Source: a virus. Taken from it: 26,580 nucleotides of DNA. This document shows positions 72 through 16,708 of the stretch, in pieces; positions within the stretch are counted from its first letter, which is position 1; each line of letters starts with the position of its first letter. The notes beneath the pieces are model-generated. The model searched no databases. It was given only the letters and a program-made list of their open reading frames with translations, and was not told where the DNA came from. Position numbers and translations under genes: made by a program. Where the stretch lies: IMG/VR virus record IMGVR_UViG_3300017767_000100, positions 1 through 26,580 of that record; one strand, written 5' to 3'.

Positions 72-952
72 TATGTATTACTCGCTGCAATATCCTCAAC
101 AACACTGAAACTTATGCCATAGGTACTTGCTCTGTTTGCACTCCAGTTTACTTCTTTATCTATAAGCCTGAATAAACCTTGTGGTTGGTTAAATACAACA
201 AAATATCCATCTGTTAAATCTTTTCTCAATCTTGGCTCAGTATGTACAGCGACACTTGTACCAGATTGGACTGCATCTTCAGTGACCATGACTAATTGAA
301 AGGGCATGTGTGAATTACTGTTGCCACTCAGCAATCCTAAATAATCACCTGCTTTTATAGTGCCTGTGCCTGAATTTATGCTTGTTAAAGCTAATCCTGT
401 AGCTCCTGAGACATTTTGCCTTACAGAACAACTTGCGGTGCTACTTTCACTTGTAAGCGTACTGGTGGTAATTATAGTGGTTGCATTTGTTATTGAACTT
501 ATCTTATGTGTGCCATTGTTTTCTTCATTGATAGCTCCAGTCACATGCACGAAGTCTCCTGCTATCAAACCTCCAAAGATGGATGTTCCTGCGGTTATTG
601 TGCTGCCACTAAAAGATAGTGTCTCACTTGTGTCGTTTACTCGTCTTGAAGCAGTGTAGTGTGTTTGATTATATGTTCCTTGATTTGTTTTAGCATCAGG
701 GTCGCCTAGCTTAAAAGAGTTTGTTGGTCCTTTGCAGTTGACCAAAAATGATTGCCATAAAGCAGCTTGTGATCTTTTCATAGGAGGTAACGTGAGTTGT
801 GCAGTGAAATAGGTGTTAGCAAACTCTTGGGTTTTTTGTTGTCCTGTGAATGGACTGATAGTTGTACCTATAGTTCTTACCAATGACCAATCACTATCTG
901 TAAAATTTGGAGTAGTTGGCATAGTCACTATGTTATTTGTATTGGTTGTCAT
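71..952 (-). CDS. Minor tail protein, distal tail candidate
   Basis: A 293-residue protein encoded directly after the tape measure, the position of the distal tail protein (g12) in RcGTA-like tails. The N-terminal 90 residues (SPFTGQQKTQ, then PPMKRSQAALWQSFL and FKLGDPDA) match a pattern I know from uncharacterised minor tail proteins of marine siphophages. The middle is Ser/Thr/Gly-rich and probably beta-structured, and the C-terminus (GISFSVVEDIA) resembles the last strand of a tail-tip beta domain. The start ATG at 952 overlaps the tape-measure stop as ATGA, with GGAG just upstream. Virion role is well supported by context; the exact ring it forms (Dit or another tip protein) is inference. 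Confidence 0.65.
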   Translation of the reverse strand: MTTNTNNIVTMPTTPNFTDSDWSLVRTIGTTISPFTGQQKTQEFANTYFTAQLTLPPMKRSQAALWQSFLVNCKGPTNSFKLGDPDAKTNQGTYNQTHYTASRRVNDTSETLSFSGSTITAGTSIFGGLIAGDFVHVTGAINEENNGTHKISSITNATTIITTSTLTSESSTASCSVRQNVSGATGLALTSINSGTGTIKAGDYLGLLSGNSNSHMPFQLVMVTEDAVQSGTSVAVHTEPRLRKDLTDGYFVVFNQPQGLFRLIDKEVNWSANRASTYGISFSVVEDIAASNT

Positions 953-2718
953 GCTCCACCTAGTAATCCTTTTCTGAATGCACCACCTCTTGCTGAGGCT
1001 TCAAAAACTGCCATTTTAGAAGTTTCTGCTATCTGAGGTAACATCTTTTGTACTTCTGCCCTAGTTGTTGCTTCTACTCCTAAGGCAAAGTTATTATTCT
1101 GTACCACAGTCACTCCTCCGCCTCCACCCATTGCGTTTCTTGAGTTCATGTTATTCATAAGAGTACCGCCTGTGTTCGGCATAAATAACTCAGGTCCTCT
1201 TTCTCCAACTAAAATAGGTCTGTTTGCTTGTAATGTACCTCCACCTGCTGAACCACCTATAGTCGGCAAAGCGTTTGGTGTACCACTCAAACTAAATACA
1301 GCATTTAATATTTGATTAACTACTGCCATTTGTAAAAAAGTGGCTATGATTTGCTGTACTATATTTTTTGCAAAGTTTTTAAATGATTCTAAAGCCGATT
1401 CACCTTCCATCAATGCACCGACAAAATCATTAGTGAAAGCATGACTGGTGCTTGTTATAGACTGTTTTAATTCGCTGCCCAAAGTCACTTTAGCTTTATC
1501 GGCTTTTTCACCTAGATCATCAAGACCATCACCTACGTCATTTAATTCGCTTTCCAATTCTGATGTGTCTATAGTCAACTCTTTTACTATCTCACTTAAA
1601 CTAGAAGTCACTCCTAGTTGTTCATCAAACTTACCAATAATATCTTGTACTTTTTTTCCTAGATCATCTAGCAAACCTGTGAAATATAGTATTGAAGCCG
1701 ATATTAAAAGAATAGGGTTTGCCTTCATTATTAAATTGAATAATTTCATAGCAGCAGTAGCAATCGTCAAACTTTTGACTAATTTGAGCAGTGCTAAACC
1801 CATACTGGCTAATTTCAAGGCAATGCCCACTGCCATAAAAGCTACTATTTCGTCTTTAAATTTTTTAACAAAGTCAAATGCTGTGCTTATTGCCTGACCG
1901 CTTTTTTCAAATGCAAGTCTTACTACTCCACCTATGACTTTAGCTGTCTCTAACGAGTTGACCAATAGCACACTTAAATCTCTAGCAACATCTATAAGTA
2001 CATCTTTCAATCCACCTTGACCTATTTCATCCATAAACAAAGAAGTAGCATCGCCTAAGTTTGAAAAAGCACCTGTCAAAGTATTAGCTCTTTGCGTTAT
2101 TGCTTCTGGAAACTTAATTTCTCCTACAGCTCTCACAAAACCCATTACCCCTTCGGCAGATTTATCAACTGTTTCAGTGATATCCCCAAAACTTAAGGTG
2201 ATCTTGTCTCCTTCAGTCTTTCCTTCAAAACCTAAGGCTTGTAGTGATTCAATAGAAGTAGTACCTGCTTTAAAGATAGCCTGAGCTATTTGGTCTATGC
2301 CTACTCCTTGAGCTGCAGCTACATTACCGATACCTCTCAAATCTTCTTCGGTTGGCTTGAGTCCTATTCTTCTAAACTCAAGAAAAGCTCTGGTCACTTC
2401 ATCAATTTGGAAAGTGGTTTGTGCGGTGAACACCTTAATCATATCTAAGGCTTGTGCTGTTTCTGCAGCACTGCCTGTGTTAGCTTGTAAGGTTGCTTCT
2501 AAATCCTCAAACATTTGTGTCGTTTGCACAACACTAGAAGCCAATCTAGCAAAACCAATGACACCAAAAACCTTAGCTAAGTTTCTAAAAGTTAAAACAG
2601 ATGATTTTGCTTTCTTATTGGATATATCTAATTGTTTATTTACTTGATCAAGACCTTTACGCAGATTTGCTGTTTCTGCCCTAATCTCTACAATTAAACT
2701 GTCTACTGTAGTTGCCAT
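949..2718 (-). CDS. Tail tape measure protein
   Basis: A 589-residue protein that sets tail length and is threaded through the tail tube. Residues 1-70 are rich in heptad-like Leu/Ile/Val positions (MATTVDSLIVEIRAETANL), typical of tape-measure N-termini. Residues about 290-345 form a long hydrophobic, helix-rich stretch (FMAVGIALKLASMGLALL, then LILLISASILYF-like). Near the C-terminus a Gly-rich linker precedes LVGERGPELF (503-512), a motif repeatedly found in phage tape measures. The start overlaps the upstream stop as TGATG. By the usual rule of about 0.15 nm per residue, the tail would be about 85-90 nm. The gene lies directly after the chaperone frames, as expected. Confidence 0.93.
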   Translation of the reverse strand: MATTVDSLIVEIRAETANLRKGLDQVNKQLDISNKKAKSSVLTFRNLAKVFGVIGFARLASSVVQTTQMFEDLEATLQANTGSAAETAQALDMIKVFTAQTTFQIDEVTRAFLEFRRIGLKPTEEDLRGIGNVAAAQGVGIDQIAQAIFKAGTTSIESLQALGFEGKTEGDKITLSFGDITETVDKSAEGVMGFVRAVGEIKFPEAITQRANTLTGAFSNLGDATSLFMDEIGQGGLKDVLIDVARDLSVLLVNSLETAKVIGGVVRLAFEKSGQAISTAFDFVKKFKDEIVAFMAVGIALKLASMGLALLKLVKSLTIATAAMKLFNLIMKANPILLISASILYFTGLLDDLGKKVQDIIGKFDEQLGVTSSLSEIVKELTIDTSELESELNDVGDGLDDLGEKADKAKVTLGSELKQSITSTSHAFTNDFVGALMEGESALESFKNFAKNIVQQIIATFLQMAVVNQILNAVFSLSGTPNALPTIGGSAGGGTLQANRPILVGERGPELFMPNTGGTLMNNMNSRNAMGGGGGVTVVQNNNFALGVEATTRAEVQKMLPQIAETSKMAVFEASARGGAFRKGLLGGA

Positions 2719-2906
2719 CAGTCAGGATACCTCTCCATAAGATCATTTAATTCGTCTTTGGACATAGGGGTTGGTTGATTGCCACTATGAAATTCAGTGA
2801 ACCCATCTATGGCACAGTGTATTTCTATCACTGTAGCGTTCCAAAATTCAGAAGGTTGCATTCCAATCATACCCATACATATCTCCATATATCTTTTGAT
2901 GGGCAA
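2718..2906 (-). CDS. Second tail assembly chaperone frame (GTA gp10.1 / TAC_6-like), probably made by -1 frameshift
   Basis: This 62-codon frame would have to start at a TTG with no Shine-Dalgarno sequence at a normal distance. The motif GMIGMQPSEFWNATVIEIHCA matches the Phage_TAC_6 (RcGTA gp10.1) type. The frame is open upstream without a stop all the way to the A-run at 2928-2936 in the preceding gene and lies exactly in its -1 frame. The likely product is therefore a 183-residue fusion: 114 residues of the upstream protein followed by 69 residues from the codon at 2927 onward. The fusion would act like lambda gpGT, binding tail tube and tape measure during assembly. Independent initiation at TTG is the alternative. 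Confidence 0.8.
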   Translation of the reverse strand: MPIKRYMEICMGMIGMQPSEFWNATVIEIHCAIDGFTEFHSGNQPTPMSKDELNDLMERYPD

Positions 2907-2933
2907 TTTGTCATCAACTCTTACTCCTTTTTT
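2896..2933 (-). promoter_or_regulatory. Programmed -1 ribosomal frameshift site (A_AAA_AAG) with downstream hairpin
   Basis: On the minus strand the codons before the stop of the chaperone gene read GGA AAA AAA AAG GAG TAA. The heptamer A(2933) AAA(2932-2930) AAG(2929-2927) is the canonical bacterial -1 slippery sequence used in dnaX. Nine bases downstream TTGATG (2917-2912) can pair with CATCAA (2901-2896) around a 10-base loop. A GGAG lies about a dozen bases upstream and could act as a Shine-Dalgarno-like stimulator. The hairpin is short and AT-rich, so its role is less certain than the slippery site. Confidence 0.75.
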
Positions 2934-3268
2934 TTTCCTTCTGCTTCTCCTTCTTCTACTGAATCAGTCGTAAGTGATTGTGTTAATAACTCAGCTACTG
3001 CTTTAGTTGCATTGACCAAACCTATGTCAGCAACTATTTTTTTTATGTCGTTTTCTTGAATATCTTTACCACCGCCTCTTAAGGCAGGGGTTAGCACATA
3101 GATGATATCTGCCATTCGGATATCTCCTTCTGCCATTTTATTAGCTAATTTGATGACTCCACATCCACAAGCTGCTTCTATTTGCATAATAGAATCAACA
3201 GTTAATCTGGCTTTGTAAGTATCTTTTCCTAAAGTAAGATCAATCTGACCCTTCATTGGATTTGCCAT
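2921..3268 (-). CDS. Tail assembly chaperone (GTA gp10 / TAC_11-like)
   Basis: A 115-residue protein corresponding by position and pattern to RcGTA gp10 (Phage_TAC_11): MANPMKGQIDLTLGKDTYKA, a central VDSIMQIEAACGCGVIKLAN and ALRGGGKD at about residues 62-69. Such proteins coat the tape measure before the tail tube polymerises. The C-terminus is acidic, then ends in Lys-Lys-Lys-Glu encoded by a run of nine A. That run is a slippery site linking this gene to the next frame. The start at 3268 lies inside the 3' end of the preceding gene, whose stop is at 3240. Confidence 0.8.
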   Translation of the reverse strand: MANPMKGQIDLTLGKDTYKARLTVDSIMQIEAACGCGVIKLANKMAEGDIRMADIIYVLTPALRGGGKDIQENDIKKIVADIGLVNATKAVAELLTQSLTTDSVEEGEAEGKKKE

Positions 3269-3509
3269 TTGACTCTCCTTGAGCTTTGCTCGTTGGACTT
3301 CCCATTGGAAGTTCTAATTTAAGTTTTAAAATATCGTCTCTAGTATCAAGTGATACCGAAACAACCTTATAAGACTTGCCATCTACAACAATGGTAGTTG
3401 GCTCATCTTTTTCTTTGCCTAGAAAGTTCGGCAACTCAAGAACGTCATCCTGCATAACTGCAGGCATCTCTTTGCCACCTTCTTTAACAAGAACATTCTT
3501 CCAAGCCAT
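3240..3509 (-). CDS. Small unknown protein between tail tube and tail chaperone genes
   Basis: An 89-residue protein starting MAWKNVLVKEGGKEMPAVMQ. I do not recognise a family. The middle (TTIVVDGKSYKVVSVSLDTRDDILKLKLEL) suggests a small beta-strand domain, and the last 20 residues are hydrophilic (Gly/Ser/Asn/Lys). AGG upstream of the ATG at 3509 gives a weak ribosome binding site. It overlaps the next gene by 29 bases and sits in the tail operon, so a tail-assembly or minor structural role is likely by context only. Confidence 0.65.
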   Translation of the reverse strand: MAWKNVLVKEGGKEMPAVMQDDVLELPNFLGKEKDEPTTIVVDGKSYKVVSVSLDTRDDILKLKLELPMGSPTSKAQGESNGKSNEGSD

Positions 3510-3517
3510 AAGTTACC

Positions 3518-3925
3518 TTATACTGTTGCGAATGTTATTGCACCAGAGCTTTCTAAAGTTACTGAATAAGTAACTTCTCCATTAAACTCTCCTGCGTACT
3601 CTAAAGAAGCAACCATAAACGCACCTGTGTAAGTTCCAAAATCTGGAACAATCACTTGGAAGTTTTTGAATGCTGCTGCATTCATTGCATCTTTCAGGGT
3701 AGTTTCAGTAGAGGAATCAGTAAAGACTCCTGAGCCTGAAACAGACATAGAATGAATACCACCATCAGCCAACAAAGTTCTATTCCCTGAGGAATCTTTA
3801 TTTGTGACATCAACAGCTTCATCATTGAGAGTTATGGAAGTAGAACGCAATCCACCAACTGTTACATAGGTAGAACCTGTGGTGTTGATTTTGAGCAGTA
3901 GTGCTGCTCCTTTTTGTGCTGCCAT
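3518..3925 (-). CDS. Major tail tube protein (TP901-1 / GTA gp9 type)
   Basis: A 135-residue protein whose pattern fits the Phage_tail_2 family: an N-terminal GAALLLKI, then a STSITLNDEAVDVTNKDSSG segment, and a C-terminal YAGEFNGEVTYSVTLESSGAI. The EAVDVTNKDS-type segment is a hallmark of TP901-1-like tube proteins. It polymerises as rings around the tape measure. The start has a good Shine-Dalgarno sequence (TAGGAGTAAAATTATG), which fits a highly expressed structural gene. The position before the chaperone pair and after DUF3168 matches the RcGTA order. Confidence 0.88.
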   Translation of the reverse strand: MAAQKGAALLLKINTTGSTYVTVGGLRSTSITLNDEAVDVTNKDSSGNRTLLADGGIHSMSVSGSGVFTDSSTETTLKDAMNAAAFKNFQVIVPDFGTYTGAFMVASLEYAGEFNGEVTYSVTLESSGAITFATV

Positions 3926-6298: not shown

Positions 6299-8026
6299 TT
6301 ATCCTTCCAATGTCTCTATTCTAGCTTTTAAGTCATCTATTATCACTTGTTGTTCTTGCATAGCTTTTATTAACATAGGAACAAACACTGAGTATTTGAC
6401 TGATTTACTCTCGGTATCTAATTGTTTGCCATTAGCATCAATATCTTTGATTGTTTCTACTAAAGCAGGAAATACAGTTTCTAATTCTTGTGCAACAACA
6501 CCTATTTGTTTTAAATCATCTCCTATGAAATTAAAGTTTCTGACTTTGACCTTTTTCAAGTCATCTAATTTGCCTGTAGCGTCTACTATATTTTCTTTTA
6601 GTGTTCGGTCTGATAATTGCCCATAACTATTATTAGCATTCTGTATATTACCATTTGCAAATATAACAAATCTTTGCGTTCCATTGGCATTAGTAGATGC
6701 TCCCTCAAAACCACTTAACACTTGTCCACTTGTGCCTGATGTACCTGTTCTCAATCTTAAGGTAGATGTAGTGCTAAAAATATCGGATAATCCAGAAGAA
6801 GCAATACGCATTCTTTCATTACCATTTTCTTCAAATATGAAACCACCATTACCAGCAGCATTTAATTTCATATTGTCATTATCACCACGAATATGAACTG
6901 TATTATTTGAGGTAGAAGCACCAGAAACACCACTATCACTTAACTTTATTCTTCTGTCATTACCGCCTACAAGATGCACATTTCCATCAGTTGTAAAAAT
7001 AACATCGGCATCATCTGAACCTGTTCCACAAGCAAAAGCTAATCCATTATTATCTCCTGATATTTGAAAATCTGGTCTTGTTCCATTACCTGTTCCGAAC
7101 CCTGCTTTAAAAGCATCTGCAAAGTGCATACCATTACCTGCAGCAAATGTAGCAGTTGCATTGAAACCAATATTACCTGAGCTATCTATGCTCAAACGCT
7201 TTGTGCCTGTTCGTGTTGTAGTGTTTGCTGCGGTATAAAAGTTTATTTCAGTAGAAGCGTTGTATTGAGAAGAAGCACCTCCTACATCTATTCTATTGCC
7301 TGATGAGTTTGCGAAGTATTGTAATATCTGGAAACCTTCTGTCTCTGTTCCTGAATCGTATTGACGAGCTAGAAAATGTCCTTCTTTATTAGTATCATCA
7401 GTTTCGTTATCCGCAATAATTAAAGCACCATCTAAAGCTAATCCAACATCATGGACATGGGTTAATAGCACTTCACTGTTAGCACCAAATTTTATTGAGT
7501 CACCATCAATAGGTAAGTTAATCCCTGTGCTAGAGGTTAAGACCTTTAAAACATTATCATAATATAGCTCTACCTGCCCATCAGCTACAGCTTTTATCAT
7601 AATCTCTGTTGTTGCTACTTTTTGTAACTGTATTTCAGAACCACGAACTCTTAAAATTCCTGTTCCTGCATCATCTATAAAACTATTAGACCCATCGTGA
7701 TAAATTTGTAAATCGCCACCACTCGCAGAGCCTATTTCTAATTTGACACTATCCCCAAGTATCAAATCCCCTGTCATAGTGCCACCAGACAAAGGTAGGA
7801 CTGTGCTAAAGAAGGAAGCGTTGTCGTTCATGGCAGCAGCTAACTCATTCAGCGTATTAAGTGCGGAAGGTGCAGAATCTACTATATTGGCTACCGCAGT
7901 AGTAACGAATGCTGTGGTCGCTACTCTTGTTGTGTTGTTACCTGCAGACTGTGTGGTCGTAGTTGGATTACCGCCTAGAGCTACGCCATCTATAATCTGT
8001 TCACTGCTTATCTTGGTATTACTCAT
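6299..8026 (-). CDS. Fibre protein 3 with C-terminal S74 intramolecular chaperone
   Basis: A 575-residue fibre. Residues 1-90 form the head found also in the second fibre (NTKIS, VALGGNPTTTTQSAG, TTRVATTAFVTTAV, ALNTLNELAAAM), ending in LPLSGGTMTGDL. One unit of the DLQIYHDGSNSFIDDAGTG repeat follows, then Gly/Ser/Asn-rich beta structure. Residues 472-575 are a Peptidase_S74 chaperone: SDRTLKEN gives the catalytic pair Ser472 and Lys477, and GVVAQELE and a terminal coiled coil follow. After trimerisation it should cut itself before Ser472. The start has GAAGG provided by the end of the preceding gene. It is an adhesin or host-recognition fibre. Confidence 0.9.
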   Translation of the reverse strand: MSNTKISSEQIIDGVALGGNPTTTTQSAGNNTTRVATTAFVTTAVANIVDSAPSALNTLNELAAAMNDNASFFSTVLPLSGGTMTGDLILGDSVKLEIGSASGGDLQIYHDGSNSFIDDAGTGILRVRGSEIQLQKVATTEIMIKAVADGQVELYYDNVLKVLTSSTGINLPIDGDSIKFGANSEVLLTHVHDVGLALDGALIIADNETDDTNKEGHFLARQYDSGTETEGFQILQYFANSSGNRIDVGGASSQYNASTEINFYTAANTTTRTGTKRLSIDSSGNIGFNATATFAAGNGMHFADAFKAGFGTGNGTRPDFQISGDNNGLAFACGTGSDDADVIFTTDGNVHLVGGNDRRIKLSDSGVSGASTSNNTVHIRGDNDNMKLNAAGNGGFIFEENGNERMRIASSGLSDIFSTTSTLRLRTGTSGTSGQVLSGFEGASTNANGTQRFVIFANGNIQNANNSYGQLSDRTLKENIVDATGKLDDLKKVKVRNFNFIGDDLKQIGVVAQELETVFPALVETIKDIDANGKQLDTESKSVKYSVFVPMLIKAMQEQQVIIDDLKARIETLEG

Positions 8027-8027
8027 A

Positions 8028-8213
8028 TTAGCCTTCTAACTTATCAAGGTTGGTTATAGTGGGTTGTGCATCGCTGACTTCCCATTTTGTAATCTGCCAT
8101 TTAGTGCCTGTTTTAACAATTACAATTTTTTCGTTACCGCCAACTATCGCAGGAGCAAAGTCATCATCTACAACATTTGGACAAGCAGCTTTTATTTTTT
8201 CAAACATAGTCAT
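8028..8213 (-). CDS. Small protein between fibres 2 and 3
   Basis: A 61-residue protein (MTMFEKIKAACPNVVDDDFA...). The C-terminal half KTGTKWQITKWEVSDAQPTI resembles short phage proteins encoded next to tail fibres, some of which assist fibre assembly. I cannot name the family. AGGA in the stop region of the second fibre serves as ribosome binding site seven bases before the ATG. It ends in Leu-Glu-Gly, as fibres 1 and 3 do, where GAAGG provides the ribosome binding site for the next gene. Confidence 0.65.
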   Translation of the reverse strand: MTMFEKIKAACPNVVDDDFAPAIVGGNEKIVIVKTGTKWQITKWEVSDAQPTITNLDKLEG

Positions 8214-8217
8214 AATT

Positions 8218-9687
8218 CTATCCTATCAAACATACAGAAAAGTAAGAAGCTGTTGTTATTTGCCCATTTGATGAGCCTGAAAATGCTTCATATCTGTAAA
8301 TGTCTCCTTTTGCCATATATAGATTTAGAGCTTGATAAGCATCATAATTATAGGCATTATGAGAGCCGCCTGACCCCTCTGTATATTCAGTATGTGCTAC
8401 ATAGTATTCCCCTAAACCACTACCTGAACTGTTCAAATGATTACCTTTTACTAAAAAATAATTAGTTGAGTTGATAGCATATAAATTAAAGTGTGAACCA
8501 ATACTGTAAATGCCAGTAACAGGAGCAGTAAATATACCGCCTGAAAAGTGTCCACCTATATCAGATGAATTGGTTGTAAACCCAGTAAGAGTGACCCAAC
8601 CATCTCCTGCGGTTACAGTCGTAGTAGAAGCCATTTTTCTTATACCATATGGTCCTGTACTTGTCCTTGATATACCTACTCCATAACCTTCATCATTGAT
8701 AAGTTCCCAATTTTTATTAGTGTTTGATGCATTTCTTGACATCAAAAGCAGTGATGCTTTGGCACTTGCTGTATCGTCTGTTTGTACAGTGATTTTTGCA
8801 GATGATGCGCCATCTAAACCTAAGATATGTAAATCAGAGCTTGGCGAAGTATAATTTATTCCAACCCTTTTATCGGTACTCACAGCTAAAACTTCTGTAT
8901 CTACGCTGCCTGATGTGCCAAATCCAACTCTCCAATAATCAGTAGATGCAGAAAAAACACCCATCATATCAAAAACAGTATTATCTCCTGCTCTTAATAA
9001 ATAAGCAGGATTATTACCTGCTCCTCCTGTTTTTACAGTCATACTGGGATTGCCACTTGCTGTTGATATAATAGAATCATTACCAAAGGTAGCACCTGCA
9101 TTAAAAGTTGCTGCACCTGCAGCAGACATATCTAAAGTAAGAGCAGTAATCGTGCTACTGCTATCAACACCATTAAATTTTATGTCTTTGTCAGACTTCA
9201 ATGAATAGATAACTAAGTTTTCACTTTCGTTAGAAACTCTACCTACTTCACCGCTTCCTCCATAAGCAAATATAGTGTGGTCTCCATCTGCATCTAAGGT
9301 TAGATTGCCCCCAACATCTAAACTAAAATTACCTGCATGAGCAATGTTTCCTGTCAAAGTACCACCTGCTAATGGCAGTTTAGTAGCTATGGAGTTAGTT
9401 ACAGTCGTGGAGAAGTTAGCGTCATCTCCCAACGCTGCTGCCAGTTCATTAAGTGTGTTCAAGGCACTTGGCGAACTATCCACTAGGTTAGAGATTGCTG
9501 TACTGACAAAGGCAGTCGTAGCCACCCTTGTAGTGCTGTTTCCTGCGGTTTGAGTCGTTGTTGTGGGGTTACCTGCTAGTGCAACATCATCTGCCACTTT
9601 ATCGCCTGTGACAGCGTTATCTGCAATGGCAGCAGTGAGAATGTTTGCGTCTGCTATTACCTTTGATGTTATCTTTGTGTTTGCCAT
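8218..9687 (-). CDS. Fibre protein 2 with C-terminal C1q-like domain
   Basis: A 489-residue fibre. Residues 1-115 share the head of fibre 3, with an insertion of about 18 residues near the start (ANILTAAIADNAVTGDK). The shaft is Gly/Ser/Thr-rich (GATFGND, TLDMSAAGAATFN). There is no S74 chaperone. Instead residues about 363-489 follow the C1q/TNF-like pattern: GGIFTAPVTGIYSIGSHF, then ALNLYMAKGDIYRY and a final ASYFSVCLIG. C1q domains are trimeric jelly rolls known at the ends of some phage receptor-binding proteins. The Shine-Dalgarno GAAGGA overlaps the stop of the giant fibre. Confidence 0.85.
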   Translation of the reverse strand: MANTKITSKVIADANILTAAIADNAVTGDKVADDVALAGNPTTTTQTAGNSTTRVATTAFVSTAISNLVDSSPSALNTLNELAAALGDDANFSTTVTNSIATKLPLAGGTLTGNIAHAGNFSLDVGGNLTLDADGDHTIFAYGGSGEVGRVSNESENLVIYSLKSDKDIKFNGVDSSSTITALTLDMSAAGAATFNAGATFGNDSIISTASGNPSMTVKTGGAGNNPAYLLRAGDNTVFDMMGVFSASTDYWRVGFGTSGSVDTEVLAVSTDKRVGINYTSPSSDLHILGLDGASSAKITVQTDDTASAKASLLLMSRNASNTNKNWELINDEGYGVGISRTSTGPYGIRKMASTTTVTAGDGWVTLTGFTTNSSDIGGHFSGGIFTAPVTGIYSIGSHFNLYAINSTNYFLVKGNHLNSSGSGLGEYYVAHTEYTEGSGGSHNAYNYDAYQALNLYMAKGDIYRYEAFSGSSNGQITTASYFSVCLIG

Positions 9688-9688
9688 G

Positions 9689-12600
9689 TTATCCTTCTAA
9701 TTCTTTTACTCTTGCTTCTAATTCTTTTATTGCTCTTACTAAGTGTGCAATTACACCAACAGTATCAATTCCCATATCGCCTTGTCCATCTGTTCCTGTC
9801 ACTACATCTGGCAATAGTGGTTGTACTTCTTGTGCTATAAACCCTGTTTTTTGATTACGTATTTCTTCACCTTCAATAATCGTAGATTTCATCCTAAAAG
9901 ACTTGATGGGTATTTGAGTAATCTTGTCTAATGATGTTCCGCTTACTTCTTTTATATTTTCTTTTTTATCTCTATCAGATACGTTGCTTCCTGCAAAGTA
10001 GTAGTCTCCATTTCCATAGACTCTGAATAAACTATTTGAACCCCAATGCGATAGATGTATGTAGTTGTTATTAGAAGCATCACTATCCCATGTGTAGCCA
10101 ACATAACCTGTGTTCTTGGTACTATTAGCCTTACCCACCCCAAGATATAAAGTCTCTCCATTTGTAAGGTTTGCCACAAGGTTTTCTTGAACGTGGTTAA
10201 AAGCATCAGAACGATTATTTTTAACTTGTAATGTTGCTGCACCTGCTGCACCAGAACTATTAATTCTAAGTCTTTCTGTGCCACCTGCAATAATATTTAC
10301 AGCATCTGAAGTAGGTCTACTAATTCCTGTATCTGTATCATTAGTAAAGGCAAATGCAGGTGCTGATGTTCCTTGTGAAGGAACTCGTACTTGAGCATTA
10401 AAATTAGCTATACCACCTTCTGACATATCAAATTGCACTGCATTGATAACAGTACTATTATCATTACCTTGGATATATATATCAGCATCTGCAATTACAC
10501 TTTGAATAATAAAATTATTACTGTCTTCTTTAAATTGCCCATAAAGTAAACTACCATCAAAAAATCTCACTTCACCATTATCGTCAGCACTTAAATCAAT
10601 CCTAGCAGCAGAGTCTAATGTTATAGTGCCATTTGGCGTGGCTATCGCTCCTGCTGTTCCATCACTTGTTATTTCAATATCAAAACCTGCTCCTAAAGAT
10701 AAAGTTTTATTATCACCAAGACGAATATGAGAGTTAAATGTAGCTGTTCCTCCATCTGACATATCTAGGGTTAGTGCTGTAGTTCCTGCTGAACCATCAT
10801 CATTGCCTTGGAATATTATGTCTTGGTTTACAGTAGCATTTTTAATATATGTGTTTGAGCCATCATTATAAATAGCAGCATCATCATTACTTCCAAGTCT
10901 TACTGCCCTATTATCACTTAATCCAATATCATTATTGAAATTAGCACGACCACCTTCTGACATATCTAGGGTAAGTGCTGTAAAAGCACCACCACCATCA
11001 GAGTCATTACCTCTTATAAATAAATCTTTATCTGCTTGTTCTACACCTAAATAAGTATTTCCACTTACATTAGAAATTGAATAAAAAGTAGAACCACCCG
11101 CTTTGTAAAAAATGTTATCACCATCAGCATCAAGAATGATGTCTCCTGCGACATCTAAGGTAAAGTCACCTACAGGAACAACTAAATCAGAAGCACTGCC
11201 TGTTGTGCCTAAAGTAGTTTCTTGACCATTTGACTCTAAAGCAAGTGTTGCTCTATGTCCGCTTGTTGAAGCTGTATCAACAAGCAATCTGGCGTGTTGA
11301 GTAGCATTAAGGGTAAGAATATTTGCATCATCATTATTATTACTTGCACCCCCTGTCGCTGTAACTTTTCCTGCAAAGGTAGCGTTCTCATTACTATCAA
11401 AGGTAAGTGCTACTGCATCCGCAGAAGAAGATATGCTTACTGCAGTAGCCATTAAGGTATTCACGTCAGTCTTTTTCAGTGCTGAATCGGTAGCATCAAG
11501 AATCATCATCTTGTCGCCACTTACCGCAGTTACTTCTGTTAAGCCTGAGATAATATCTGTGTTTAGGTGTGAAGCCTTGATTGTGTCATTGACTGGTACA
11601 TTGATGTCTGTCTGCGTAAAGGTCATTACCTCTAGGATTGCACCGCTTGTTGGTGCTGTGTCCATTGTTAGGGTAGTACCGCTTACGCTGTAATCTGTTT
11701 TCTGTTGGTAGACACCATCTAAGAATACCTGTGTGTTGTTCTCTGATACTGGTGCTATTGATAGGGTAAAGTTGACCCCTAAGTTACCGCTACCGCCATT
11801 ACAGGTAAATTGGTCAGTATTTAGATTGCTACCTGATACTGCAGCTCTAACTGAGTAAACAATAATTCTAGTTCCGCTTGGTGGTGCTTCATCAAGTGTT
11901 AGTGTTGTGCCATTGAGTACATAGTCATTTGGATTTTGGAATACACCGCCAACGAATACCATGAGGTTATCTTCACTGTTTGGTGTCTGACTTAGCGTAA
12001 AGGCAGTTGTTGAGTTGTCTGCAGTCGTATAATTATCTACTGTAAAGGTATTTGCACCACCGCCACCAATCTCACCCCAAGCGTCTGTATAACCCTCAAA
12101 TCTACCTAAAGAAGTATTGTATCTAAATAGACCTGCTGCTGCTGATGGTCTCTGTGCAGTAGTTCCTTTTGGTACAAAGAAAGCGTCTGTTGCACTACCT
12201 GCATCAAGACTATAACTAGGACTTGCAGTTTTTATACCGACTCTATTGTTAGAAGTATCTACTTTTAGGACATTGGTGTTGACAGCAACATCACCAGTCA
12301 CTGCCAACGAAGTTAGAGTGCCTAAACTTGTAACATTGGCTTGTGCTGCAGTCTGTAAAGTACCTGTCAAAGCACCAGAAAAGCCTGTGGCGGTCATTAA
12401 ACCAGTAGAAGGGTTGTATGTTAAGCCTGTGTCTGTTTCTAAGCCTTGCGTACCTGTAGCACCATCTACGAATACTGGGAATATGTTTTCATTACCACTG
12501 TTATTGGCACTTATTGTTACTGTTGTCGCTAAAGCTGCAGTTCCAGTTGTATCTTGGTTTAGAGTTCCTACTGTAAAGTCTAAAGTGTTGTCTGAGTCTT

Positions 12601-15600
12601 GATAGGCTACTGTAATTCCAGATTCAGTATTTGAACCTACCATTGCACCTACTGTGTCAGCAATAGTTTCTGCAAGTGTAGTGCCATTGACTGTTATGGC
12701 ATCTGCTTCTAATGTGCCATCAATATCAACATCTCCAGAAATATCTAGGCTTGTTGCTACTACTGCACCTGTTACAGAAATACCAGTTGAGGTTGTGGCT
12801 AGTTTTACTGAGTTGTCGTGATAAAGAGATACTGCTCCATTTTCTACTGCTTCTATTAAATTTTCTTGTGTTGTAGTTCCTCTAAATCTTATGCTACCTG
12901 CACCCTCAATATATAAATTACCTGTTCCTGCTTCTCTTATAAAACTGTTTGCACCATCATGAAAAAGTTGTAAATCTGAACTCCCTCCTAATTTAATAGA
13001 AGCACTATCTGGCAAAGTAATATTAGAAGCAAAATCTACTTGTGTTGAATCTCTTGGAATACTGATTGCAGTATTTTTTGTTCCATTGGTTACTCCACCA
13101 ATTAAAACTTTTGTATTAGTATCATCAAAACTAAAATGTGCACCATAAGCTGTAGCACTAGGGTCTATAATGTTTAGACCAAAAGTTGTGCTTGCACTAC
13201 CCTTGATATCTATTCCGTCAGTAGCAGTAGAAAGTTTTTCTGCATTATCAAAGTACGAAGTAACTGCACCATCTTCGTTTAGTGCCATAAAATTTTCGCC
13301 TGCAAGTGATTTGAATCTTAAATTTGTGGCTTGTATATAAAGATGACCACTACCACTTTCTTTTATATAGGCATTAGTGCCATCACTATGAATCTGTAAG
13401 TTTCCACCTGCTCCGAATACTGCTTTATCATTATCACCAAAGTTAATGTCTGCACTTGTTGTAAGACCATCAGTTGTTATAACTCCTGTTACGTTTATCC
13501 CTGTTGAAGTTGTGCTTAATTTTGTAGAATCATTATGAAATAATGTTACTGCACCACCTTCTGCACAAACAATAAAGTTATGAGCAAGAGCAGAACTTTC
13601 AAGTCTTAAATCTGTACCTCTAAGTCTTAAACTACCTGTACCTGCATCTTTTATATAACTATTACTGCCATCATGATAAATCTGTAAATCATCTCCTGCA
13701 CCAAAGATAGCTTTTCCATTATCGCCAAGTTTTACATCATGATTGAATATTGCAGTACCTGCATCTGAGCCATCAAGCGTTAAAGCTGTGGTATCTAAAG
13801 CACTAGCATCAGAAGTTCTAAATACTATGTCTGCATCTACAGTATTATGGTCTATGTAAGCAGTACCAGAAGATTTAAACCTTAAATTATTCTCTGCAAA
13901 TATACTATCGTTAGTACCAACCAACACTTGAAGTGAAGCATCAAGAGTTCCTGTAACATTTACTCCAGTTGAAGTGGTTGCTAATTTAGCTGCATTATCG
14001 TTATAAAGAACTGCTGCACCATTAGCTGTAAATGTAGCATAAGTTTCTGAGTCTCCACTCATTAGGTACAAAACATTACTAGCTTTTATTGACAGGTTTC
14101 CTGTGCCTAGTTCGTTTATAAAACTATTATTTCCATCATGGAAAATCTGTAAATCATTACTTGCACCGAAAACAGCTTTTGAACTGTCTGCAAACTCTAG
14201 GGCATTGTCTGATTTATCAAATACTATATTGGTAGCTGCACCTGTAAATGTTACATCACCACTTACTGTAAGACCTGTTAATGTGCCAAGACTTGTTACT
14301 GTCGGTTGTGCGGTAGCTAAAACAAAATCTAAAGTATTGTCTGCATCTTGGTATGTAGCTGTGATACCTGTTTCAGTATTAGAGCTGAACATAGCTCCCA
14401 CTGTGTCTGATATAACTTCTGATAGGTCAATATCTGCACTACCATTAAAACTAACACCATGTATGTTTCTAGCGGTTTCTAAGGTTGTTGCAGTACTGGC
14501 ATTACCTGTTACAGCACCTACTAATGAAGCTGAGTGGAATGGTTTGTTAGAAGTAAGTCTGCTGTTACTGTTATCCCATGTAATAGTAGGTTTACTTGTT
14601 GAAGCACCAAACTCTATACCTGCACCATTGGTATTTGCTAATGAGGTTGCGTTTTTACCTACTCTTATTGTTAAATCTTCTACATCTAGCGTTGCGGTGT
14701 TGATTGTTGTTTCAGTGCCATTAACTGTGAAATTACCTGTTACGACTAAATTACCACCGATTGTTACGTTATCTGGCAATCCGACAGTAACACTTGCAGT
14801 TTCACTTCCTGAACCACTTACCTCAATCTCATTTGCTGTGCCTGTGATTGTAGATACATAATTTCCTGTGGTGTCTGTTCCTAATGCAACGCTGTTTGCT
14901 GCTACTGTCAAAGCAATAGAAGTATTGCCTAAGTCTGTCATAGTGCCTGAGCCAGTAACGTCTCCTGTGAAGGTTAGTGTTGGGTCATTGACATTGAAAT
15001 CTAATGTGCCATCACTGTCCTCGTAAGTTACTGATATGCCGCTTTCGGTGTTGGAACCCACCATAGCACCAACAATATCTTGTATGCGTTCTGCGTTTAC
15101 AGTTACCGCACCAGAACTTACTGTAAAGTCGGTTGCATTGAAACTAGCTATTCCTTTATTAGATGAAGTAGCGTCCTCTGCACTAACAGTAATTGTTGCA
15201 TTTTCTGAGCCACCGCCTGATACATCAATACCTTCTCCTGCTGTTATATCAGCGACATAATTACCAGTTGTGTCTGTGCCAAGAACAATAGAGTTCGCTT
15301 GTATGGTTGTAGAGATAGTCACATTACCTAAGTTGGTCATTGTGGCACTACCTGCAACATCACCGCTAAGAGTTATGGTTGGGTCTGATACGTTTAGGTC
15401 AATAGTTCCATCGGCATCTTGATATACAACATCTATACCTGATTCTGTGTTACTGCTGAACATTGCACCTACTAAGTCTTGTACATGTTCTGTATTAAGA
15501 CCTAGTGTTACACCTGCAGTTTCTGAGCCGCTATTAGCTACGTCAATACCTGTATTGCTCTGTGCAATAGTAGCTACATAGTTTCCTGTCGTATCTGTGC

Positions 15601-16708
15601 CTAACGCTACTGAATTAGCTTGTATAGTAGCTGCAAAAGAAACATTACCTAGATTCGTTACTGTGCCGCTACCTGCTACATCACCAGTTAAGGTTATATC
15701 AAAGTCACCTACATCAAAGTCTAATGTACCATCGCTGTCTTGATACGTTACTGCAATACCGCTCTCTGTATTGCTCGTTGTCATTGCTCCTACGATGTCT
15801 TGGATTCTTTCTACATTTACTGTTACTGCACCTGATGAAACTGTGAAATCTGTGCTATTGAAAGATGCGACACCTTTGTTGGAGTCTGTGGCATCTTCTG
15901 CACTAATTGTTACTGCCGATGTTTCACTACCGCTACCACTAACATCTATTCCTTCACCTGCGGCTATAGTTGCAATGTAGTTTCCTGTCGTGTCAGTTCC
16001 TAAAGCGACACTGTTAGCAACAATAGTTGCAGTTAGAGTAGCATTGCCAAGTTGGGAGAGTGTAGCATTACCACTTAAATCTCCTGCAAGTGTGATTGTG
16101 GGGGATTTGTTAATAACAGTGCCTGAACTTATATCTCCACCATTGATGTCCACTGTGTTGAGGACTGGTGCAGTTAAAGTTTTGTTAATTAAAGTCTGTG
16201 TTCCTGTTAGCGTCGTGACTGTGCTATCTATGTTTATTGTTACAGTATTACTAGAGCCTACTGTATCTAAGCCTGTGCCACCTGTTATGTTTAATACTTC
16301 GGTGTTTATAGTAACGCTTTGATTACCACCTGTGTCGCCTTGGAAATTGATAGCCTGTGCTGCATTTTGCACGTCTACATAGCTTTTAATAGATTGTTGT
16401 GTAGCAAGTTTAGTATTGCTATTAGAACCCATGTTATCTTCGTCTAATACACCTGTAACTACAGAACCACCGCTTGTAAAACCTAAGTTATAAAGTTTTG
16501 CTGTTAAAGATTGTGACCTTGTAGATTGACTATCTTCCCATTGCAAATTTGCATGGTCATAAACTAATAGTGAACCTGCTGTTCCTGCAGTAGAAGTAAC
16601 AACACTTCTGCCTAGTATCGTATTTGGTCCTGCAACACCTTGAGTACCTGCTGTAACAACTGAAATAGTACTTACATCGGTGACTGTTATTTGACTTACT
16701 GTACTCAT
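9689..16708 (-). CDS. Giant fibre protein 1 (2339 residues) with C-terminal S74 intramolecular chaperone
   Basis: Extremely long beta-rich, Ser/Thr/Gly/Asp-rich protein. In order: a short head with NMGSNSNTKLATQQSIKSYVD (about 95-115); four LGTDTTGNY units (about 230-625) spaced 133, 106 and 133 residues, alternating long and short; a VTSLGTLTGLTVSGDV spacer; four DLQIFHDG-type units (about 843-1320); two tandem small domains (about 1549-1700) with NLMVFVGGVFQNPNDYVL and TQVFLDGVYQQKTDYSV; then further shaft repeats. The end is Peptidase_S74: VSDRDKKENI gives Ser2244 and Lys2249 for self-cleavage, releasing about 96 residues with a terminal coiled coil. It starts at an ATGA overlap with the preceding gene. 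A host-recognition fibre is the likely role; being encoded among head genes, a capsid or neck fibre is possible. Confidence 0.9.
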   Translation of the reverse strand: MSTVSQITVTDVSTISVVTAGTQGVAGPNTILGRSVVTSTAGTAGSLLVYDHANLQWEDSQSTRSQSLTAKLYNLGFTSGGSVVTGVLDEDNMGSNSNTKLATQQSIKSYVDVQNAAQAINFQGDTGGNQSVTINTEVLNITGGTGLDTVGSSNTVTINIDSTVTTLTGTQTLINKTLTAPVLNTVDINGGDISSGTVINKSPTITLAGDLSGNATLSQLGNATLTATIVANSVALGTDTTGNYIATIAAGEGIDVSGSGSETSAVTISAEDATDSNKGVASFNSTDFTVSSGAVTVNVERIQDIVGAMTTSNTESGIAVTYQDSDGTLDFDVGDFDITLTGDVAGSGTVTNLGNVSFAATIQANSVALGTDTTGNYVATIAQSNTGIDVANSGSETAGVTLGLNTEHVQDLVGAMFSSNTESGIDVVYQDADGTIDLNVSDPTITLSGDVAGSATMTNLGNVTISTTIQANSIVLGTDTTGNYVADITAGEGIDVSGGGSENATITVSAEDATSSNKGIASFNATDFTVSSGAVTVNAERIQDIVGAMVGSNTESGISVTYEDSDGTLDFNVNDPTLTFTGDVTGSGTMTDLGNTSIALTVAANSVALGTDTTGNYVSTITGTANEIEVSGSGSETASVTVGLPDNVTIGGNLVVTGNFTVNGTETTINTATLDVEDLTIRVGKNATSLANTNGAGIEFGASTSKPTITWDNSNSRLTSNKPFHSASLVGAVTGNASTATTLETARNIHGVSFNGSADIDLSEVISDTVGAMFSSNTETGITATYQDADNTLDFVLATAQPTVTSLGTLTGLTVSGDVTFTGAATNIVFDKSDNALEFADSSKAVFGASNDLQIFHDGNNSFINELGTGNLSIKASNVLYLMSGDSETYATFTANGAAVLYNDNAAKLATTSTGVNVTGTLDASLQVLVGTNDSIFAENNLRFKSSGTAYIDHNTVDADIVFRTSDASALDTTALTLDGSDAGTAIFNHDVKLGDNGKAIFGAGDDLQIYHDGSNSYIKDAGTGSLRLRGTDLRLESSALAHNFIVCAEGGAVTLFHNDSTKLSTTSTGINVTGVITTDGLTTSADINFGDNDKAVFGAGGNLQIHSDGTNAYIKESGSGHLYIQATNLRFKSLAGENFMALNEDGAVTSYFDNAEKLSTATDGIDIKGSASTTFGLNIIDPSATAYGAHFSFDDTNTKVLIGGVTNGTKNTAISIPRDSTQVDFASNITLPDSASIKLGGSSDLQLFHDGANSFIREAGTGNLYIEGAGSIRFRGTTTQENLIEAVENGAVSLYHDNSVKLATTSTGISVTGAVVATSLDISGDVDIDGTLEADAITVNGTTLAETIADTVGAMVGSNTESGITVAYQDSDNTLDFTVGTLNQDTTGTAALATTVTISANNSGNENIFPVFVDGATGTQGLETDTGLTYNPSTGLMTATGFSGALTGTLQTAAQANVTSLGTLTSLAVTGDVAVNTNVLKVDTSNNRVGIKTASPSYSLDAGSATDAFFVPKGTTAQRPSAAAGLFRYNTSLGRFEGYTDAWGEIGGGGANTFTVDNYTTADNSTTAFTLSQTPNSEDNLMVFVGGVFQNPNDYVLNGTTLTLDEAPPSGTRIIVYSVRAAVSGSNLNTDQFTCNGGSGNLGVNFTLSIAPVSENNTQVFLDGVYQQKTDYSVSGTTLTMDTAPTSGAILEVMTFTQTDINVPVNDTIKASHLNTDIISGLTEVTAVSGDKMMILDATDSALKKTDVNTLMATAVSISSSADAVALTFDSNENATFAGKVTATGGASNNNDDANILTLNATQHARLLVDTASTSGHRATLALESNGQETTLGTTGSASDLVVPVGDFTLDVAGDIILDADGDNIFYKAGGSTFYSISNVSGNTYLGVEQADKDLFIRGNDSDGGGAFTALTLDMSEGGRANFNNDIGLSDNRAVRLGSNDDAAIYNDGSNTYIKNATVNQDIIFQGNDDGSAGTTALTLDMSDGGTATFNSHIRLGDNKTLSLGAGFDIEITSDGTAGAIATPNGTITLDSAARIDLSADDNGEVRFFDGSLLYGQFKEDSNNFIIQSVIADADIYIQGNDNSTVINAVQFDMSEGGIANFNAQVRVPSQGTSAPAFAFTNDTDTGISRPTSDAVNIIAGGTERLRINSSGAAGAATLQVKNNRSDAFNHVQENLVANLTNGETLYLGVGKANSTKNTGYVGYTWDSDASNNNYIHLSHWGSNSLFRVYGNGDYYFAGSNVSDRDKKENIKEVSGTSLDKITQIPIKSFRMKSTIIEGEEIRNQKTGFIAQEVQPLLPDVVTGTDGQGDMGIDTVGVIAHLVRAIKELEARVKELEG
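12750..14180 (-). repeat. Four degenerate DLQIFHDG repeats within the giant fibre
   Basis: Four protein-level units (residues about 843-1320), each with a G-[AS]-x-x-[DN]-LQ-[IL]-[FYH]-x-DG-x-N-[SA]-[YF]-I motif, then a beta stretch and K-L-[AS]-T-[TA] before the next shaft segment. A fifth related unit lies in fibre 3. The first three lie closer together (about 300-470 bases between motifs) than the fourth. The DNA is diverged; the conservation is in the protein. Such units form repetitive beta-helical or knitted-trimer shaft segments in fibres. Confidence 0.8.
14830..16010 (-). repeat. Tandem LGTDTTGNY repeats within the giant fibre (alternating long and short units)
   Basis: Four units begin NS[VI][AV]LGTDTTGNY at minus-strand positions near 15990, 15590, 15270 and 14870. 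Unit lengths alternate 133, 106 and 133 residues. The long units contain an extra AEDAT-x-SNKG-[VI]-ASFN segment missing from the short unit. Each has an SNTESGI-x-V-x-Y-[QE]-D-[SA]-D-x-T motif. The DNA is repetitive enough to mis-assemble from short reads. Confidence 0.85.

Follow-up and report, generated by a model that had tools for sequence, protein, structure and literature searches.

A predicted lambda G/GT-type -1 frameshift joins gene transfer agent-type gp10 and TAC_6 tail assembly chaperones in a group of phages

The window analysed here is a stretch of 26,580 nucleotides (nt) from an IMG/VR record of an uncultured, siphophage-like virus (IMGVR_UViG_3300017767_000100, positions 1 to 26,580), and its subject is a pair of tail assembly chaperone reading frames of the kind known as gp10 and gp10.1 in gene transfer agents (GTAs). 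All features described lie on the minus strand, where the gene order is major tail (tube) protein, chaperones and tape measure, so that the chaperone pair follows the gene for the major tail protein and precedes that for the tape measure, as expected for genes of the G/GT type. The first frame, at 2921..3268, encodes a gp10-like chaperone of 115 amino acids (aa), the putative equivalent of lambda G, which matches PF11836 (Phage_TAC_11/GTA-gp10; E 1.5e-17) with a profile score of 63.9 bits, above the curated cut-off of 27.8. The second, at 2718..2927, is a -1 frame extension and candidate equivalent of lambda T, with 69 residues (2927-2721) and a stop codon at 2720-2718; it matches PF09550 (Phage_TAC_6; E 4.6e-9) at 37 bits, above the curated cut-off of 23.4. 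Against TIGR02216, the rcc01693 family and equivalog of gp10.1 in the Rhodobacter capsulatus GTA (RcGTA), the extension scores 26.1 bits (E 7.3e-6) and does not reach the cut-off of 56.1, and by these profile scores it is related to that family and not its equivalog; a GTA copy from Paracoccus also falls slightly under the cut-off, at 52 bits.

The gp10-like gene (3268-2921) terminates with GGA AAA AAA AAG GAG TAA. A run of nine A residues (2928..2936) holds both A_AAA_AAA and A_AAA_AAG, and the latter, at 2927..2933, is in phase with the gp10 frame. After a one-base slip the reading becomes GGA GTA AGA GTT GAT GAC AAA TTG CCC and continues until the TGA at 2720-2718. A preliminary description made from this sequence had reported the canonical heptamer at the end of gp10, a GGAG upstream of it, a -1 frame open across the next open reading frame (ORF), and a fusion of 114 and 69 residues. 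The coordinates and phase of the heptamer and both lengths are confirmed from the sequence, the GGAG is present at 2947-2950, and the -1 frame is open through the PF09550 domain as far as the tape measure gene.

Relatives were collected from IMG/VR by protein similarity to gp10 and to the second domain and not by the presence of a heptamer, and include 22 close relatives of gp10 with identities of 54-100%. A total of 87 distinct gp10/TAC_6 junctions were compared, that of the window among them, and start codons were counted in 85. The second frame is in the -1 register in all 87, and in none do the two domains form a single continuous frame. All 87 have a strong heptamer within the overlap: A_AAA_AAG in 36, G_GGA_AAG (the lambda heptamer) in 41, A_AAA_AAA in eight and A_AAA_AAC in two. 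When the same amino acids were encoded by synonymous codons drawn at random, strong heptamers were present in 25.5 ± 3.4 junctions, with a maximum of 39 in 2000 runs, versus the 87 observed. Among in-frame positions, 106 of 942 in the overlap hold a strong heptamer, compared with 14 of 8826 upstream in gp10, and the distance from the end of the heptamer to the zero-frame stop ranges from 0 to 27 nt across junctions. In nine of the 87 (L090, L154, L166 and similar loci) the zero-frame stop codon directly follows the heptamer. Stops between the two frames or a missing slip site would have spoken for separate genes, and neither was found in any relative; every one keeps a heptamer and has the -1 frame open, although the A run itself varies (A6, A7, A9 or none).

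Four annotated phage records contain the pair, and all four annotate it as two genes. Three have G_GGA_AAC in a -1 overlap, and the fourth has a weaker candidate, C_CCT_TTA, together with a stop/start overlap. A tblastn search of phage records with gp10 at a threshold of 1e-2 found no relatives, and a megablast search with the window gave no match. In a scan of a genome collection TAC_6-like matches were seen only in L182 and L183, two contigs of one Methanomethylophilaceae metagenome-assembled genome from sheep colon, and may stem from a gut phage or from an error in binning.

Alignment with relatives shows that the extension is conserved as far up as the slip site, and the residues GV(K/R)VDD, which lie upstream of the conserved LPIKR block (LPxxR among relatives), are kept in the A-type relatives of the window. 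Between the slip site and the Arg of LPxxR, pairwise differences within the largest A-type group, which are not independent counts, number 1273 at third positions of -1-frame codons and 578 and 584 at the other two. In the predicted structure of the extension helix 1 begins at residue 9, upstream of the first ATG, and the model of gp10 has residues 103-115, with the slip site inside, disordered; these last 13 residues are predicted to behave as expected for a linker. Fold searches with both chaperone models, which are of fair confidence, gave no informative match in the PDB.

Two candidate stimulators flank the slip site. The GGAG (2947..2950), 13 nt upstream of the heptamer, is a possible Shine-Dalgarno-like stimulator. 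In both the A_AAA_AAG and the G_GGA_AAG groups the region ahead of the slip site pairs more strongly with the anti-Shine-Dalgarno sequence than its synonymous redraws do (matched by 0 of 40 redraws in each), and the eight A_AAA_AAA junctions have no such enrichment. Because the sequences are related, this signal is suggestive of a stimulatory role and not proof of one. The second candidate, a 6-bp hairpin at 2896..2917 (2917-2912 with 2901-2896), had been put forward in the preliminary description; it does exist, having the lowest energy when the first 40 nt are folded (-3.9 kcal/mol), but it is weak, gives way to a different structure (-10.0) when 60 nt are folded, and can form all six pairs in no more than 6 of the 23 relatives whose spacing is the same. 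It is probably not a conserved stimulator and was rejected as one.

From this architecture and its conservation we infer a programmed -1 frameshift of the lambda G/GT type that fuses the gp10 and TAC_6 tail chaperones, with a probability of about 0.92. The majority of ribosomes would terminate at the TAA of gp10, yielding the 115-aa chaperone, and a minority, at an efficiency that is likewise conjectural, would slip back by one base on A_AAA_AAG (2933-2927) and continue in the -1 frame. The shifted product would have 183 residues, 114 from gp10 followed by the 69-residue gp10.1-like TAC_6 domain. By analogy with lambda, both forms would be expected to cover the tape measure, with the extension bringing in the tail tube protein, and this is the presumed role of the fusion in tail assembly. 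Two points weigh against this interpretation. Downstream of the slip site the signal for structure is a modest one (mean z about -0.8), similar to that of a control window at -200, and the 87 junctions, being related, cannot be counted as 87 independent trials. Given that kinship the tree of heptamer types matters, and on it A-type and G-type junctions are interleaved, with at least five changes by parsimony and at least two forced by well-supported branches.

The fusion could instead arise by transcription, with RNA polymerase slipping on nine A residues so that some mRNAs gain one A and enter the -1 frame. An A9 run is present in 26 of the 87 junctions including that of the window, ten of these 26 have only A_AAA_AAA or A_AAA_AAC, and the absence of upstream anti-Shine-Dalgarno enrichment at the eight A_AAA_AAA junctions is also in keeping with polymerase slippage. 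Yet in 20 A-type junctions the run is no longer than A6 or A7, and the 41 G_GGA_AAG junctions need no A run at all, 36 of them having no homopolymer longer than 4 nt around the site, so that a mechanism common to all of them must be ribosomal. Polymerase slippage therefore seems unlikely to account for the fusion, and ribosomal and polymerase slippage may act together in the A9 members. The junctions that have A9 and no in-frame heptamer other than A_AAA_AAA (L048, L116, L118, L124, L130, L163, L168, L170) could rely on polymerase slippage.

A second alternative is that no fusion is made, and that a separate protein arises by initiation, or reinitiation coupled to gp10 termination, at a TTG codon (2904..2906) in the manner of GTAs, 69 of 76 RcGTA-type junctions having a stop/start overlap (see below). 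This in-frame TTG is present in the window, where it is the sole candidate start ahead of the conserved LPIKR block and, as the preliminary description had stated, lacks a proper ribosome binding site. It is most likely an ordinary Leu codon: the nearest relatives have no start codon there, L003/L004 having CTG at this position and L007-L016 CTA or TTA. More generally, 72 of 85 junctions have no ATG, GTG or TTG in the second frame from its own upstream stop through the conserved Arg of LPxxR, and hence nowhere to initiate ahead of the conserved block, and the conservation of GV(K/R)VDD upstream of that block in A-type relatives also weighs against separate initiation. We regard initiation at the TTG as very improbable. 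Finally, homopolymers are prone to error, but a sequencing or assembly indel that split one continuous gene is a negligible prospect, given the same sequence in separate contigs (L001, L002), relatives with non-homopolymeric heptamers, and a single frame in none of the 87.

Immediately downstream, the tape measure protein (949..2718; 589 aa; phrog_1716, E 9.6e-29) starts at an ATG that overlaps the stop codon of the extension (TGATG). Upstream, the major tail (tube) protein (3518..3925; 135 aa) matches PF06199 (E 4.9e-40) and, in the PDB, the tail tube protein Rcc01691 of RcGTA (E 2.3e-32). The tail tube gene is followed by an ORF of 89 aa (3240-3509) that overlaps the start of gp10 by 29 nt and has no Pfam or PHROG match; an overlapping ORF ahead of gp10 is found in 78 of 87 related loci, and the examples read share a MAWK.V.VK.G start. 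Further away, at 6299-16708, three large ORFs of 575, 489 and 2339 aa separate the major capsid gene from the genes of the head-tail connector, an unusual place for them; two of them bear an endosialidase-type S74 chaperone domain and they are probably tail fibres.

A close comparison is with the GTAs themselves, sampled as Paracoccus clusters on plasmids, a freshwater contig (L197) and 80 further IMG/VR loci, which together gave 76 distinct gp10/gp10.1 junctions. The tail tube protein of the Paracoccus clusters matches RcGTA Rcc01691 (E 3.2e-69). These loci have the same two Pfam families as the window, in the same order ahead of the tape measure, and the -1 register is found in 69 of the 76. 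Unlike in the phages, the final 60 nt of gp10 contain no strong heptamer in any of the 76 RcGTA-type junctions; the 69 with the -1 register have ATGA, GTGA or TTGA stop/start overlaps, and the other seven, in register 0 or +1, have a start of their own. The GTA tape measures are 176-264 aa in length (median 219), whereas complete ones in the phage set are 544-882 aa. Neither RcGTA-type feature is present in the window, where no gp10.1 start is found at the gp10 stop and the tape measure has 589 aa and not about 219. As a separate observation, a Paracoccus versutus plasmid (L195) encodes a PF11836 gp10-like protein outside its GTA cluster, on the same strand as and just upstream of a capsid-like ORF (judged by eye), with no TAC_6 partner seen.

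Because they lack a strong heptamer and have stop/start overlaps or their own starts, GTA gp10 and gp10.1 are read as two genes; the earlier statement that they are separate in RcGTA thus holds, on sequence, across the 76 GTA junctions. The phages, then, very probably fuse the pair, and the GTAs appear to keep two separate proteins. A tentative scenario, to which we give slightly less than an even chance, is that the frameshift is ancestral for gp10/gp10.1 and that domestication of a phage into the alphaproteobacterial GTA was accompanied by tape measure shortening and loss of the slippery linker, so that the former -1 register now holds two genes coupled by stop/start overlap; a gain in phages would be the alternative to loss in GTAs, and the GTAs form one group.

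Frameshifting in the lambda G/GT tail assembly chaperones is conserved among phages with long tails (Levin 1993, Xu 2004, reviewed in PMC5009743), and G_GGA_AAG, which sister lineages of the window use, is listed among the highly shift-prone heptamers in E. coli (PMC5009743). The window differs in that its families are the GTA types PF11836 and PF09550 and not lambda G and T, and in that its frameshift is a prediction. Passages of two further reports describe a chaperone -1 frameshift with AAAAAAC or GGGAAAC in phiCbK-like phages (PMC3556154) and a chaperone frameshift as usual in R. capsulatus phages (PMC8601537), and in those passages the -1 shift of such alphaproteobacterial phages is not stated for the gp10/gp10.1 family pair. 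A literature search, with most subscription papers outside its reach, found no account of a frameshift or of its absence at GTA gp10/gp10.1, of the expression of these genes, or of a contrast with phages of the same families, which is weak evidence of novelty. The preliminary description had seen here a bridge between the GTA-type pair and the G/GT mechanism; as a statement about protein families this is fair. The mechanism of -1 frameshifting was already established for tail chaperones, and its extension to the GTA-gp10/gp10.1 families is what the junctions described here indicate. On sequence evidence these families are thereby moved into the G/GT scheme, and gene calls in these phages that give the second gene its own start, or miss it, would be wrong. 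The predicted fusion in long-tailed phages and the separate proteins of GTAs with short tape measures form a natural contrast that can test why the fusion and the ratio of the two products matter.
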